From assembly GCA_030595135.1 (NCBI GenBank), contig JAUVDU010000059.1, positions 1 through 7,866 of the forward strand: a stretch of DNA of 7,866 bases. Reading direction: 5' to 3'. Position 1 is the stretch's first letter, and every line of letters begins with the position of its first letter. The notes beneath the pieces were generated by a model. The model searched no databases and was not told the origin of the DNA. It saw only the letters and a program-made list of their open reading frames with translations. This DNA comes from Deltaproteobacteria bacterium. GTDB lineage: Bacteria > Desulfobacterota > Anaeroferrophillalia > Anaeroferrophillales > Tharpellaceae. Below, piece after piece: positions 4,316 through 7,866 of the stretch. Position numbers and translations under genes: made by a program.

Positions 4316-5389
4316 TTAAAGCAACCGCTTACCGTAAGTTTGGTGATAAATTTCAACCATGCTTAAGAAAGCGATAGTTATCAGAGGGCCAAAAATAATC
4401 CCGAGCAGACCGAAAGTTGCCAGACCGCCAAAAATCGAGATGAATATCAAAAGGATATGAATCTTGACCCGATCACCAACCAATTTTGGTTTAACCAGAT
4501 ATTCAACAATCAGCGAAAGGACACCAAAGGAGGCGAGAAAGGCTATCCCTCTACCGGTTTCTCCAATGAGCAGCATATAGGCTCCGATCGGAATGAAAAC
4601 TACCGAAATACCGATGAAAGGGATGAAGGCAAAAATCGCCATAACCGTCCCCCAGAGGATCGGGGATTTTATATTAAAAAAGGCCAGACCAACTCCCCCA
4701 AGAACTCCCTGGACAATAGCCGCCATACCATTACCGACAACCATTGCCAGAGTCATGTCATTAATTTTACACAACAACAGCTCTTCCTGCTTTCGCGGCA
4801 ACGGTGAAAGAGCCAAAAGATACTCTTTAACTTTTAAACCATCAATCAGCAGAAAGTAGACAAAAATAATCAACAAGACAAAATGGAAAGAGAAGGTCAT
4901 TATCTGACCAGCCAGTACCCTGGTCCAGTTGTAAACCCATAAACCGGCCTCTTTGCTCAAGCGAATAATGTCATTCTGTAAATTGGTAAGATTATAATCG
5001 ATTCCAAGGCGCTCTAAGAGATCAGTCAGATACGTGACCTTGTCGGAGTGGGCCGAAATCAGTTGATTAAGTGAATCAAGCGTCAACTCCCGACGCAGAT
5101 AACCATAAAACTCGGCAACTTCAACCGAGAGAGAGGTTATGAGAAAAACCAAAGGCACAAAAAGCCCTAAAAAGATCGCTAAACAGATCAGACTGGAAGC
5201 CATCCAGCTGCGACCGTCACAAACTTCAACCAGTTTTCGGTAAAATGGATGACACAATCCGACCAGAATCAGGGAGAGAATCAGGGTGGTAAGGAAAGGC
5301 GTTAACATCCAGACAAAGAGGCCAACAGAGAACAGAAGGGCCATAAAGAAGACAACTACTTTATAGACTGACGGTTTATCCTCAACCAT
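4316..5389 (-). CDS. AI-2E / PerM family transporter-like membrane protein
   Basis: This 357-aa polytopic inner-membrane protein belongs to the family of E. coli TqsA (autoinducer-2 exporter), PerM and YdiK. Other members act as Na+/H+ antiporters, so the substrate cannot be named. Hydrophobic segments lie at about residues 11-29, 31-46, 63-87, 163-184, 219-238, 246-275, 283-299 and 310-346, with a soluble loop at about 90-155 as usual in the family. Family motifs include SPILWGTVMAIFAFIPFIG (242-260), EYLVKPKLVG (296-305) and the C-terminal GGLATFGLLGIIFGPLI (321-337). The ATG at 5389 is chosen because GGAG lies 8 nt upstream (5401-5398). The frame extends to a TTG at 5419, but that start would place this ribosome site inside the gene. 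The rhomboid gene follows after 32 nt. Its promoter should lie within 5400-5490, and no strong candidate was seen. Confidence 0.9.
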   Translation of the reverse strand: MVEDKPSVYKVVVFFMALLFSVGLFVWMLTPFLTTLILSLILVGLCHPFYRKLVEVCDGRSWMASSLICLAIFLGLFVPLVFLITSLSVEVAEFYGYLRRELTLDSLNQLISAHSDKVTYLTDLLERLGIDYNLTNLQNDIIRLSKEAGLWVYNWTRVLAGQIMTFSFHFVLLIIFVYFLLIDGLKVKEYLLALSPLPRKQEELLLCKINDMTLAMVVGNGMAAIVQGVLGGVGLAFFNIKSPILWGTVMAIFAFIPFIGISVVFIPIGAYMLLIGETGRGIAFLASFGVLSLIVEYLVKPKLVGDRVKIHILLIFISIFGGLATFGLLGIIFGPLITIAFLSMVEIYHQTYGKRLL

Positions 5390-5488
5390 TTGAATCTCTC
5401 CGAAATCAGGTGTAATCAAAAAAATAGCACTTTAGAGAAAATACCACAGGTAGAAAGGAAAAACCAGCTTTTGCTTGATAATTTTAGC

Positions 5489-5517
5489 TTGACATGAGCA
5501 GATAATTGATCTATTAG
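5489..5517 (+). promoter_or_regulatory. Sigma70-type promoter of the aroF-pheA operon
   Basis: A perfect -35 box TTGACA (5489-5494) is followed after 17 nt by TATTAG (5512-5517), a 4-of-6 match to TATAAT. The start of transcription would fall near 5521-5525, giving a leader of about 280 nt before the aroF ATG at 5804. This is the best promoter in the 414-bp gap between the divergent PerM-like gene and aroF, and it is correctly placed to transcribe the leader peptide and both terminators. Confidence 0.65.
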
Positions 5518-5520
5518 TGC

Positions 5521-5565
5521 ACCGTTTAGCGGACGATAGTAAAATCAGATCCGCAAAATATCGGT
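5521..5565 (+). other. Possible hairpin at the 5' end of the aroF leader RNA
   Basis: Nested complementary segments can pair: ACCG (5521-5524) with CGGT (5562-5565), GCGGA (5529-5533) with TCCGC (5550-5554), and GAT (5535-5537) with ATC (5544-5546). It would sit right at the predicted transcript start. It could protect the 5' end, mark a protein-binding site, or be chance. Internal loops are uneven, so the call is weak. Confidence 0.3.
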
Positions 5566-5598
5566 AAAATAACTTAATTAACCAGGAAACACATTAAA

Positions 5599-5679
5599 AT
5601 GATCCGCTCTCTTTCCGCCCTTTTCTTTTTTTGGTTTTATTTTAGCAGAGATAAGGATAGGTTTGCCTGGGGCATTTAA
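5599..5679 (+). CDS. Aromatic-rich leader peptide of the aroF-pheA attenuator (26 aa)
   Basis: A short frame from ATG 5599 to TAA 5677-5679 encodes 26 residues, too short for usual gene callers. Residues 9-15 are FFFWFYF, seven aromatic residues in a row, and residues 22 and 24 are Phe and Trp, so 9 of 26 are aromatic. An AGGA (5584-5587) lies 11 nt upstream of the ATG, and the predicted promoter lies 82 nt upstream. It is followed by alternative RNA hairpins and two intrinsic terminators before aroF, an aromatic biosynthesis gene. This matches the logic of known leader peptides such as PheL of E. coli, whose Phe codons stall ribosomes when charged tRNA-Phe is scarce. The mix of Phe, Trp and Tyr suggests it senses all three, with Phe dominant (five of the seven clustered codons). 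The peptide itself probably has no function after synthesis. Translation is inferred. Confidence 0.82.
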   Translation: MIRSLSALFFFWFYFSRDKDRFAWGI

Positions 5680-5721
5680 GAGTTAGAAACTCATATAAAT
5701 CAATAAAGCCGAGGGTAAACC
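5660..5721 (+). promoter_or_regulatory. Proposed ribosome-sensitive anti-terminator hairpin (disrupts terminator 1)
   Basis: Segment 5660-5673, inside leader peptide codons 21-25, can pair with 5708-5721: 12 of 14 positions pair (two G-U wobbles) around a 2x2 internal loop. The enclosed RNA folds further: 5674-5678 with 5696-5700, and GAGTT (5680-5684) with AACTC (5688-5692). This structure takes the left arm and loop of terminator 1. A ribosome stalled at the aromatic codons (5623-5643) would reach to about 5655 and leave 5660-5673 free, whereas one at the leader stop (5677) would cover it. The pairing is read directly from the sequence; the mechanism is inferred. Confidence 0.55.
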
Positions 5722-5737
5722 AACCCCCGGCTTTTTT
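5705..5737 (+). terminator. Intrinsic terminator 1 in the aroF leader
   Basis: AAGCCG (5706-5711) pairs with CGGCTT (5728-5733), and GGG (5713-5715) with CCC (5724-5726) across one A/C mismatch. Pairs 5705-5734 and 5716-5723 extend the stem, leaving a 6-nt loop. Six Ts follow from 5732 (the first ones pair), then C and four more Ts. It lies 26 nt after the leader peptide stop. In the attenuator it would be the 1:2 hairpin, acting as a terminator or pause site. Confidence 0.75.
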
Positions 5738-5755
5738 CTTTTAAGGGCCGTGGGG
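5724..5755 (+). promoter_or_regulatory. Proposed second anti-terminator (links terminator 1 right arm to terminator 2 left arm)
   Basis: The right arm of terminator 1 (CCCCCGGC, 5724-5731) is complementary to 5747-5755 in the left arm of terminator 2, with a single bulged T (5751): eight G-C pairs. Two G-U and two A-U pairs (5732-5735 with 5743-5746) extend it to a 7-nt loop. It excludes both terminators. It could form only when 5724-5731 is released, for example by the upstream 5660-5721 pairing. This is the 2:3 pairing of a classical attenuator. Confidence 0.55.
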
Positions 5756-5782
5756 GAGAACAATCCTCACGGCCCTTTTTTT
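5743..5782 (+). terminator. Intrinsic terminator 2 (main attenuator) just before aroF
   Basis: GGGCCGTG (5745-5752) pairs perfectly with CACGGCCC (5768-5775). A G-U and two G-C pairs extend the stem inward to a 9-nt loop, two A-U pairs extend it outward, and seven Ts (5776-5782) follow. It is a strong intrinsic terminator on the plus strand ending 7 nt before the aroF Shine-Dalgarno AAGGAG (5790-5795). Since the only convincing plus-strand promoter lies upstream of it and no other gene ends there, it must regulate aroF-pheA rather than end an upstream gene. Confidence 0.88.
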
Positions 5783-5803
5783 ATTCAATAAGGAGATTAC
5801 ATC

Positions 5804-6868
5804 ATGACTATTCGTACCCATGACATTAATATCAAAAGCTTCGAACCATTGATCGACCCTAACACATTCAAAGAGGAGTTGCCGCTGACTGAAGCCAGCC
5901 GGAAAACCGTAATTGAAGGACGGCGTCAGATCGAAGATATTCTTGCTCACCGTGACCAGCGCTTGCTGATGATCGTCGGCCCCTGTTCGATTCACGATGA
6001 AAAGGGGGCTTTAGAATACGCTGAACGACTGGTAAAACTGCAAGCTGAAGTTGCTGACACCATGCTCCTGGTAATGCGGGTCTATTTTGAAAAACCCCGG
6101 ACGACGATCGGCTGGAAAGGTCTTCTCAACGATCCGCACATGAACGGTAGCTGTGATATGTGTGAAGGTTTGCGCCGAGCCCGGCGGATTCTTATGAAAA
6201 TAACCGGGATGGGACTGCCGACGGCGACCGAAATGCTCGATCCGATTACTCCACAGTACTTGGCCGGACTGGTTTGTTGGTCGGCCATCGGTGCGCGCAC
6301 CACCGAATCCCAAACCCACCGGGAAATGGCCAGTGGTCTTTCGATGCCGGTCGGCTTCAAAAATTGTACTGATGGCAGTTTAAGTAAAGCGATCCACGCC
6401 ATGATTGCGGCCCAGGCTCCGCAAAGTTTCATCGGCGTCGATCCCGACGGTAAAACCTGCATCGTTTCAACCACGGGAAATCCCTGGACTCATATGGTTT
6501 TACGTGGCGGCCAACGACCCAATTATGATTCCGTCAGTATTGAGGAAGCATGTCAGAAATTAGTCGATGAGGGGCTCAAAGAGACTATTGTCGTCGATTG
6601 TTCACATGGCAATTCACGCAAAAAACATCAAGGACAGGAGCGGGTTTTAAAAGACGTAATAGGTCAACGCTTGGAGGGCAATCAGGCCTTGGTCGGGATG
6701 ATGTTGGAGAGTAATCTTTACGAAGGCAATCAACCTTGTAGTGAAAATATCGAGGAGTTGGCCTATGGGGTTTCAGTAACCGACGAGTGCATCTCCTGGG
6801 AAACCACTGAGAAATTGTTACGCTGTGCCCATAAACGGATGAAAAATCAATCTCTGATGGCAGCTTAG
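5804..6868 (+). CDS. aroF: 3-deoxy-7-phosphoheptulonate (DAHP) synthase, AroF/AroG/AroH type
   Basis: The enzyme condenses phosphoenolpyruvate with erythrose 4-phosphate to DAHP, the first committed step of the shikimate pathway, in the cytosol. The 354-aa protein aligns end to end with the E. coli type I-alpha enzymes. Metal ligands are present: C61 in GPCSIHD, H268 in CSHGNS, E302 in MLESN and D327 in SVTDECISWE. Substrate motifs include RVYFEKPRTTIGWKG (92-106), GARTTESQ (163-170) and PVGFKNCTDG (182-191). The allosteric region is intact (P150, S180). Position 211 is Gly (in FIGVD), as in tyrosine-sensitive E. coli AroF, where phenylalanine-sensitive AroG has Ser; this suggests tyrosine inhibition, and the symbol reflects that. 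AAGGAG lies 8 nt before the ATG. Expression is probably controlled by the upstream attenuator. pheA follows after 11 nt, with the Shine-Dalgarno overlapping the aroF stop. The function is certain; the effector is inferred. Confidence 0.97.
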   Translation: MTIRTHDINIKSFEPLIDPNTFKEELPLTEASRKTVIEGRRQIEDILAHRDQRLLMIVGPCSIHDEKGALEYAERLVKLQAEVADTMLLVMRVYFEKPRTTIGWKGLLNDPHMNGSCDMCEGLRRARRILMKITGMGLPTATEMLDPITPQYLAGLVCWSAIGARTTESQTHREMASGLSMPVGFKNCTDGSLSKAIHAMIAAQAPQSFIGVDPDGKTCIVSTTGNPWTHMVLRGGQRPNYDSVSIEEACQKLVDEGLKETIVVDCSHGNSRKKHQGQERVLKDVIGQRLEGNQALVGMMLESNLYEGNQPCSENIEELAYGVSVTDECISWETTEKLLRCAHKRMKNQSLMAA

Positions 6869-6879
6869 GAGAGAAAAAA

Positions 6880-7866
6880 ATGTCGGAACTTGATATTTTA
6901 CGCGAAGAGATCGATAATCTGGACAGCGATGTTCTAGAGCTCATTAATCACCGTCTCGAACTGGCTCGAAAAATTGGCCGAGAAAAACAGGGCCAAGGTC
7001 TTTCTACGCTTAATAACGCCCGTGAAAGTCTGGTTCTACAACACCTTGAAAAACGCAACCAGGGACCTTTGACGCAAATCGCCCTGCATCTGATTTTTAA
7101 AGAGATCATGGCCGCAGCCCGCGAGCTTCAAAGTCAGCATAAAATTGCCTTTCTGGGGCCTGAAGCCTCTTTCACCCACTTGGCCGCTTTAGGCCATTTC
7201 GGTGGCTGCTCAGTAATGATGCCGCAGGCCAACGTTGCCGAGGTTTTTCAGGCGGTGGAGAAAGGGCAATGTCACTACGGCATGGTACCTGTGGAGAACT
7301 CCATTGAAGGTTCGGTCAACCATACCCTGGATCTATTTTTTACTTCAGAGCTGAAGATCTGTGCTGAACGCTATCAAACGATTTCACATGATCTGCTGGC
7401 CGCCGGCGATATCCCTCTAGAAAGTATCCGCACGGTCTACTCGCATGCCCAAGCCTTTGCTCAATGTCGGCAGTGGCTCAGACGTCACCTGCCCGGTGCC
7501 ATATTGACCGAATGTGGGAGCACTGCTGAAGCCGCCAGGCGGGCCGCTGCGCAACGCGGCCAAACCGCCGCAATTGCCGGATCTGCTGCCGCCGAGCTCT
7601 ATAATCTCAAGGTCGTCGCTCCTAAAATTGAAGATTTACCCGGCAACACGACTCGTTTTCTGGTTCTCGGCAAAGAGGACAGTCCTCCTTCAGGCCAAGA
7701 TAAAACCTCACTTCTTTTTGTCACCCCACACCTGCCCGGCGCCCTGCACCACGTCCTGACACCAATGGCTGAATATGGTGTAAATATGGTCAAGCTGGAG
7801 TCTCGGCCAACCCGTAACGAGAAATGGAGCTACTTTTTTATTGCTGATTTCGAAGGTCACCGTGAG
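6880..7866 (+). CDS. pheA: Bifunctional chorismate mutase / prephenate dehydratase (P-protein), C-terminal end cut off
   Basis: It converts chorismate to prephenate and then phenylpyruvate, the phenylalanine branch. The frame runs 329 codons to the window edge without a stop; family length suggests a few tens of residues are missing. Residues 1 to about 85 are an AroQ-type chorismate mutase with LREEIDNLD (7-15), HRLELARKIGREK (24-36) and a conserved RE (48-49). The dehydratase follows: IAFLGPEASFTHLAA (89-103), MVPVENSIEGSVNHTLDLF (135-153), SHAQAFAQC (188-196), ECGSTAEAA (211-219) and the catalytic TTRF (257-260) in PGNTTRF. An ACT domain begins near 276 with PGALH (286-290) and ESRP (307-310), the motifs that bind phenylalanine for feedback inhibition. 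AGGAG (6867-6871) overlaps the aroF stop codon and lies 8 nt before the ATG, so it is operonic with aroF and shares its attenuator. Confidence 0.96.
   Translation, partial: MSELDILREEIDNLDSDVLELINHRLELARKIGREKQGQGLSTLNNARESLVLQHLEKRNQGPLTQIALHLIFKEIMAAARELQSQHKIAFLGPEASFTHLAALGHFGGCSVMMPQANVAEVFQAVEKGQCHYGMVPVENSIEGSVNHTLDLFFTSELKICAERYQTISHDLLAAGDIPLESIRTVYSHAQAFAQCRQWLRRHLPGAILTECGSTAEAARRAAAQRGQTAAIAGSAAAELYNLKVVAPKIEDLPGNTTRFLVLGKEDSPPSGQDKTSLLFVTPHLPGALHHVLTPMAEYGVNMVKLESRPTRNEKWSYFFIADFEGHRE

Follow-up and report, generated by a model that had tools for sequence, protein, structure and literature searches.

The stretch of DNA analysed here (the window, 7,866 nt) carries on its plus strand an aroF gene coding for a DAHP synthase, the first enzyme of the shikimate pathway, followed by a pheA-like gene that runs into the window end (Table 1). 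Both genes are recognized by NCBIfam models above their cut-offs, in agreement with the DAHP synthase-P-protein operon of the original prediction; in the N-terminal part of the pheA-like protein, chorismate mutase models match below their cut-offs. Between a predicted promoter and aroF, the DNA encodes a short leader peptide and two hairpins, each followed by a U-tract, that we call Terminator 1 (T1) and Terminator 2 (T2) and whose strands are numbered here as arms 3 to 6. The closest long open reading frame (ORF) upstream of the leader (4316-5419) lies on the minus strand and is directed away, and T1 and T2 therefore do not serve it.

Table 1. Features of the aroF leader region and downstream genes in the window
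Feature	Position	Strand	Details
Predicted sigma-70-type promoter	5489..5517	+	TTGACA 5489-5494, 17-nt spacer, TATTAG 5512-5517
Leader peptide ORF MIRSLSALFFFWFYFSRDKDRFAWGI	5599..5679	+	ATG 5599, 26 codons, stop codon 5677-5679
Regulatory codons FFFWFYF, predicted stalling site	5623..5643	+	TTC TTT TTT TGG TTT TAT TTT; stalling presumed
Arm 2 GGUUUGCCUGGGGC	5660..5673	+	Predicted 5' half of the antiterminator; within the ORF, just 5' of the stop codon
T1 hairpin, arm 3 : arm 4	5705..5734	+	U-tract after the hairpin
Arm 3 GCCGAGGGUAAACC	5708..5721	+	3' half of the antiterminator = T1 5' arm plus loop
Predicted relay hairpin, arm 4 : arm 5	5725..5755	+	T1 3' arm and U-tract with T2 5' arm, 12 bp
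T2 hairpin, arm 5 : arm 6	5743..5777	+	U-tract after the hairpin
aroF ribosome-binding site	5790..5795	+	AAGGAG, read from the sequence
aroF, DAHP synthase of aroFGH (Ialpha) type	5804..6868	+	NCBIfam TIGR00034, NF009395 above cut-off
pheA-like chorismate mutase/prephenate dehydratase	6880..7866, cut by window end	+	NCBIfam NF008865 above cut-off

The elements named in the original prediction are all found in the sequence. The 26-codon leader with its FFFWFYF run is there, preceded by a weak Shine-Dalgarno sequence; it reaches seven aromatic residues (F, W or Y) out of eight, and an ORF with at least five out of eight occurs in 18 of 2160 shuffled upstream regions. The promoter predicted ahead of the leader is visible as two hexamers, and an exact TTGACA is found at a similar distance in 13 of 14 close leaders including that of the window, a count somewhat biased by taking the best-scoring site. 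A strict consensus promoter scan did not report this promoter, whose -10 element is without the final T. As for the two intrinsic terminators, the second placed just 5' of the aroF ribosome site, both hairpins and both U-tracts are present; an inverted-repeat scan recorded T2 on the plus strand and T1 only on the minus strand, the plus-strand T-run of T1 being read from the sequence. By sequence and structure, a predicted intrinsic terminator thus lies between the leader and the first gene. The RNA from the leader to aroF folds with a z-score of -4.24, and none of 200 shuffles was equally stable.

We consider it likely that a ribosome-mediated transcription attenuator controls the aroF-pheA operon. 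From the arrangement of the leader we infer that it is translated, that ribosomes stall on it, that tRNAs are sensed and that transcription terminates, as well as the kinetic order of events, and we propose the following. When aromatic tRNAs are charged, the ribosome would reach the stop codon and cover arm 2, arm 3 would pair with arm 4 to form T1, and RNA polymerase would terminate; polymerases slipping past T1 would meet T2 as a fail-safe. When decoding is slow, the ribosome would be held at the aromatic codons, leaving arm 2 free to pair with arm 3. The freed arm 4, together with the T1 U-tract, would then capture arm 5 during its synthesis, and T2 would thereby be delayed or blocked too. 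T1 would be the main gate and T2 a second one, both opened by the same stalled ribosome. Judging solely by the codons, the signal would be the charging of the Phe, Trp and Tyr tRNAs.

A search for the aroF protein gave a match in 19 of 59 genomes, counting that of the window. The 14 aligned close leaders, drawn from the genus, family and order of the window, are those of 13 full-length aroF orthologues (the window's among them) and of one broken copy. The aromatic run (WFYF) and T1 are both kept in 14/14, which is the opposite of the pattern, terminators kept and aromatic run lost, that the original prediction had named as evidence against itself; the bases coding for WFY are even invariant across this alignment. 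T2 is present in 12 of the 14, L012 and L030 being without it. In L030 (G004:C95), the broken copy, only residues 3-69 and 161-352 of aroF align, with too little DNA between them; its leader is intact though without T2, and a deletion or an assembly fault are both possible for its aroF.

Among relatives at large, a rule asking for an ORF with at least 5/8 F/W/Y within 400 nt upstream was passed by 22 of 110 loci, two of the 110 having too little upstream sequence. The 22 comprise the 13 orthologues, the duplicates L031 and L032, as well as L034-L036, L015, L081, L082 and L088. The genus and the family also possess a second DAHP synthase (about 47-49% identical), and no 5/8-aromatic ORF was found ahead of it in 11/11 loci with enough upstream sequence. 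L015 (G038, another family of the same phylum) has an IFFWYF ORF and a terminator-like hairpin before a DAHP synthase gene, and is missed by both covariance models described below.

We then consider the antiterminator, formed by arms 2 and 3. For a modelled stalled ribosome and RNA made up to the T1 loop, arm 2 of the window pairs with arm 3; with a ribosome modelled at the stop codon, T1 forms (under assumed footprints). Once the RNA extends to the T1 end, the plain minimum-energy fold of the stalled state is T1 in 12 of the 14 close leaders, which means that the antiterminator must win by forming first. When arm 5 is included, the antiterminator is again the stalled-state fold in 11 of the 12 close leaders carrying T2.

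Conservation of this pairing was assessed on two alignments. Across 17 leaders, arms 2 and 3 are paired in 88.2% of cells as compared with 26-52% when slid, and T1 is paired in 95.6% of cells. Across 89 leaders, a curated set fitted to the structure, arms 2 and 3 are paired in 87.1% of cells versus 35.9-46.2% when slid by one to three columns, and 84 cells show changes on both sides of the pairing versus a shuffled mean of 24.7, with 0/500 shuffles as high. Eight of the 79 first-round loci described below were left out of this set, L174, L176, L177, L185, L186, L188 and L194 for a doubtful leader or gene and L182 as a duplicate of L195. Applied to the 89 leaders, the check on covariation suggested in the original prediction came out positive for the antiterminator, although in the first 17 its covariation was not clearly beyond column shuffles (28/500). 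Since it covaries and uses the same arm 3, the antiterminator is predicted to be mutually exclusive with T1.

The geometry of the leaders is also that expected of a ribosome acting on arm 2. The last aromatic codon ends a median of 10 nt 5' of arm 2 (17 nt within the genus of the window), and from the last base of arm 2 to the start of the stop codon the median is 9 nt. In our model, this spacing would let a stalled ribosome expose arm 2, and one that has reached the stop codon would cover it. An ORF with at least 5/8 aromatic residues is present in 88 of the 89 curated leaders, L152 being the one without a closed ORF by the rule used. In the densest eight residues of these 88 leaders, Tyr is found in 88, Phe in 84 and Trp in 51, with all three together in 51. 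The aromatic run is kept in class and is variable in order and codon. Moreover, the frame in which arm 2 is read relative to the leader ORF varies, all three being used (48, 24 and 16 of 88), which indicates that its conservation is of RNA and not of peptide. Altogether, the aromatic run seems to be kept for what is decoded and arm 2 for its pairing partner.

These observations bear on another way in which an aromatic leader peptide might act, namely a TnaC-like arrest in which the nascent aromatic peptide itself stalls the ribosome on a free amino acid. Such a peptide has a precedent in TnaC, known to stall in response to free tryptophan. We nonetheless find arrest highly improbable here: F, Y and W differ in order and number from one leader to the next, nothing in the peptide beyond the aromatic run is kept as a fixed motif, with arm 2 translated in three frames, and the controlled genes are biosynthetic, for which shortage and not excess would be expected to induce.

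We now turn to the second terminator and to the attenuator in which it takes part. In the window, in the stalled state and with arm 5 made, the best fold is the antiterminator together with the 12-bp hairpin of arms 4 and 5. Of the 12 close leaders with T2, 11 show both pairings and no T1 when the stalled state is folded to the end of arm 5, the pairing of arm 4 with arm 5 using 5-8 of the nine arm-4 bases (9/12 leaders by a stricter cut of six); in L011, T1 still folds. This pairing is stronger than that with all 116 unrelated terminator arms in nine of the 12 leaders, and in the other three 6, 6 and 10 of the 116 do as well. Outside the window's family, T2 was found in 52 of 139 distant members by the T2 rule used, and the segment from arm 4 to arm 5 folds with at least 8 bp in 52/52 of these, pairs being counted over the whole segment.

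The two arms also change together. With one representative for each of 24 families, a design in which kinship between families stays in, the native pairing of arms 4 and 5 has a mean energy of -17.66 kcal/mol as against -15.23 kcal/mol when arms are permuted, and 0/5000 permutations were as good. Matched changes are visible in the arms themselves: ACGGC faces GCCGU in ten representatives, AUGGC or AUGGU faces GCCAU in seven, GUGGC faces GCCAC in one and GCGGC faces GCCGC in one. Among the other five, two pair via G-U, two are unreadable by motif and L257 has mismatched arm cores. A control pairing, arm 3 with arm 6, also beats permutation, less clearly (11/5000), a result that an origin of T2 by duplication of T1 would predict.

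This last result leads to a simpler reading: a plain attenuator with one terminator, in which the antiterminator competes with T1, T2 is a T1 copy acting only as a constitutive fail-safe, and the complementarity of arms 4 and 5 is a by-product of the duplication. We see in it a real possibility, if not a probable one. The arms of T1 and T2 are indeed alike, and two of the 14 close leaders do without T2. In addition, T2 alone is more stable than the hairpin of arms 4 and 5 in 12/12 close leaders (-24.8 vs -19.1 kcal/mol in the window), and among the distant members the latter equals or exceeds T2 in stability in only 13 of 52, T2 being the stabler fold in 39. With T2 thermodynamically preferred, a relay could work only kinetically, by the order of synthesis. 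Against the simpler reading, a strong constitutive T2 would close the operon in the ON state too. Furthermore, the pairing of arms 4 and 5 tracks the changes in the T1 arm across the 24 families and is better kept than that of arms 3 and 6, and the 52 distant members with T2 all fold the segment from arm 4 to arm 5 with at least 8 bp. A duplicated T1 could give part of this signal; we nevertheless regard a two-terminator relay as plausible, and the comparison of leaders suggests that the two terminators are probably wired together.

The leader is part of a much larger family. We built two covariance models, R1 from the 17 leaders and R2 from the 89. In the window's phylum, R1 matches 102 of 395 genomes and R2 matches 206 of 395, a count that includes the genomes from which R2 training rows came; at least 104 of the 206 have no R1 match. 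In the window's genus, 10 of 13 genomes have exactly one R2 match, the aroF leader, and the other three have none. Beyond the phylum, R2 found no match in 151 genomes from the phylum to which L081 belongs (titled Chloroflexi) or in 200 from that of L045 (titled Pseudomonas); both of these searches contained no positive genome, the run of the same model on the window's phylum serving as the positive control. Among 49 genomes with other aroF relatives, R1 matches three, all of which had supplied training sequences. These 49 genomes come from 50 of 80 aroF-relative loci, less L047, 28 lower-rank loci and L031 and L032 of the window's family having been left out, and they include some titled Deltaproteobacteria or Geobacter, so that they are not purely an outgroup. 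The phylum-wide spread of this predicted leader family is thus well supported.

We examined which genes follow the leaders. R1 gave 117 matches, of which 11 belong to the window's family, 79 were examined (19 loci and the 60 best by E-value) and 27 weaker ones were left aside. As a held-out comparison, 60 matches were hand-picked among the R2 matches listed that are absent from the R1 list, their families overlapping with those used in training; all 79 and all 60 are counted in what follows. In the first round, 75 of 79 matches have an aromatic-rich leader and 65 of 79 precede a gene of the aromatic pathway: ADTH synthase (29), DAHP synthase Ibeta (14), shikimate kinase (11), DAHP synthase Ialpha (5), aminotransferase (3), and chorismate mutase/prephenate dehydratase, dehydroquinate synthase II and a TrpE-like protein (one each). 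The remainder are substrate-binding proteins (3), MBL-fold proteins (2), acyl-CoA ligases (2), an isopropylmalate synthase (1), genes without class (4) and contig ends (2). In these counts, the classes ADTH synthase, shikimate kinase, aminotransferase, DAHP synthase Ibeta, dehydroquinate synthase II and ligase stand on one representative each scanned with NCBIfam, DAHP synthase Ialpha and chorismate mutase/prephenate dehydratase on the window's genes, and TrpE, isopropylmalate synthase, MBL-fold and substrate-binding protein on a reading of the sequence.

The held-out matches agree with this picture. A leader with at least 5/8 F/W/Y is found in 59 of 60, which, together with the close leaders, supports the aromatic attenuator of the original prediction, and 56 of 60 precede a gene of the aromatic pathway (29 DAHP synthase Ibeta, 18 ADTH synthase, 8 aminotransferase and 1 shikimate kinase). 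Two of the others lie before a substrate-binding protein, one runs off the contig and one has a gene without class. We conclude that one predicted RNA family precedes non-homologous first enzymes of the aromatic pathway.

Could such leaders arise by chance, as T stretches of AT-rich DNA that read as Phe beside ordinary terminators? Phe codons are T-rich, the region is AT-rich and the model itself favours T-rich runs. The enrichment for pathway genes is invisible to the model and yet holds in the held-out set; this, the covariation of the antiterminator on 89 leaders and the 11 second DAHP synthase genes that have no such ORF make chance a practically negligible explanation.

A structured leader conserved before a biosynthetic operon might also be an RNA that binds a metabolite or a tRNA (riboswitch or T-box), its ORF being fortuitous. 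We regard this as extremely improbable: the leader families of Rfam 15 and the T-box gave no match above threshold in the window and 20 relatives, and the 5/8-aromatic ORF accompanies all but one of the curated and all but one of the held-out leaders. Rfam was also rejected as a means of identifying the leader, with nothing above threshold and a below-threshold list that looks like chance.

The reading that we retain refines the original prediction: the leader is a member of a phylum-wide family, and its two terminators look wired to each other. In its full form, it states that one module, present in half of the phylum's sampled genomes, would gate the entry to aromatic synthesis irrespective of the enzyme at that step (DAHP synthase Ialpha or Ibeta, or the archaeal-type ADTH synthase), and that in many copies, including the window's, it would be a six-arm relay of two terminators in which one stalled ribosome opens both gates. 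For this combined statement, we hold the case to be evenly balanced.

An attenuator of aroR-aroF in Corynebacterium glutamicum, a bacterium of another phylum, was reportedly described by Neshat et al. in 2014; Camakaris (1980) is said to be the source of an earlier suggestion of aroF attenuation, and Vitreschak et al. (2004) reportedly surveyed attenuators in proteobacteria. According to the excerpts at hand, the C. glutamicum leader resembles that of the window by its Phe-Tyr-Phe codons before a DAHP synthase gene, and differs from it in that its stated run has no Trp codon and that no second linked terminator is described there (PMC11802643, PMC4046766). In the same bacterium, the excerpted account is that Phe shortage raises aroF transcription and Tyr shortage does not, both codons being present (PMC11802643). 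With this precedent, the sensing of total aromatic flux that the original prediction read into the mixed run need not follow from it.

Other known leaders share parts of this design. The available part of PMC8632094 describes the uORFC-13-1 motif of Acholeplasma aroF, which likewise has an upstream ORF with Phe codon(s) and a terminator; its 24 representatives come from a single genus and from environmental sequences, whereas the window's family has F, W and Y, several genes and a phylum-wide range, the two being compared by description only. The E. coli pheA (pheL) and trp (trpL) leaders likewise combine regulatory codons with controlled termination (PMC11802643) but carry codons for one amino acid and control end-branch genes. 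In the same review, E. coli aroF and aroH are given as being under TyrR and TrpR (PMC11802643). Leader RNAs predicted for aroF/aroH in Shewanella and a hypothesis of aroF-tyrA attenuation in E. coli also appear in excerpt, with no mixed aromatic leader or tandem terminators described in those parts (PMC2659441, PMC8632094). Topologically, the closest system is the his attenuator of E. coli and Salmonella, in which, in the portion available, chained stems BC and DE oppose AB, CD and EF, much as the pairings of arms 2 with 3 and 4 with 5 oppose the others here (PMC10989985). Only EF is described there with uridines after it, whereas in the window both T1 and T2 have a U-tract, and the U-tract of T1 is itself part of the hairpin of arms 4 and 5 (PMC10989985). 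The window thus departs from a his-type arrangement in which only the last hairpin terminates.

Attenuation of DAHP synthase genes is therefore a known kind of control (aroR, uORFC-13-1 and the suggestions for Shewanella and E. coli), while a leader family of this span and a relay of two terminators appear to be new. In the open-access literature, we found no description of this leader family, and nothing on leader-peptide attenuation in connection with Desulfovibrio, Geobacter, tandem terminators or shikimate kinase; an attenuator survey makes no mention of aroF or aromatic (PMC2965389).

For a phylum known here mostly via metagenome assemblies, these results propose a control of the aromatic pathway that can be put to the test. 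The placement of a single RNA family ahead of non-homologous first enzymes would mean that regulation tracks the pathway step and not the gene. For annotation, a leader match indicates an aromatic gene downstream, as the held-out matches illustrate. If the relay is true, it would offer a simple design for a tight switch, with two serial terminators in the OFF state and one event that removes both in the ON state.

Several loci of this search deserve mention in their own right. Aromatic-rich short ORFs with a terminator-like hairpin also precede aroF in L081 and L088 (titled Chloroflexi), and, given that R2 has no match in that phylum, these leaders are perhaps of independent origin. Short Phe-rich leaders (e.g. 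...FGFFFFD) lie before ABC-type substrate-binding-like proteins in L168, L185, L186, L256 and L263, and might mark an aromatic amino-acid transporter. In L144 and L147, aromatic leaders stand about 300 nt before an acetate-CoA-ligase-alpha-like gene, a long gap that makes the link uncertain; the gene downstream of L144 matches TIGR02717 below cut-off. Aromatic leaders lie close before an MBL-fold-like gene in L140 and L188 (two genomes), L140 being without an NCBIfam match.

The presence of T2 differs between downstream genes, 10 of 11 attenuators having it before a PLP aminotransferase and 0 of 12 before a shikimate kinase. At the aminotransferase loci, which include L130 (PRK06836 family), L151, L180 and L232, the leader suggests an aromatic aminotransferase. 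Finally, tandem matches to the aromatic attenuator, about 240 nt apart, occur in two genomes of one genus: L195 and L182 (G026:C248:762-865 and 1006-1104), both ahead of one ADTH synthase gene, and G062:C288:5410-5510 and 5650-5747.
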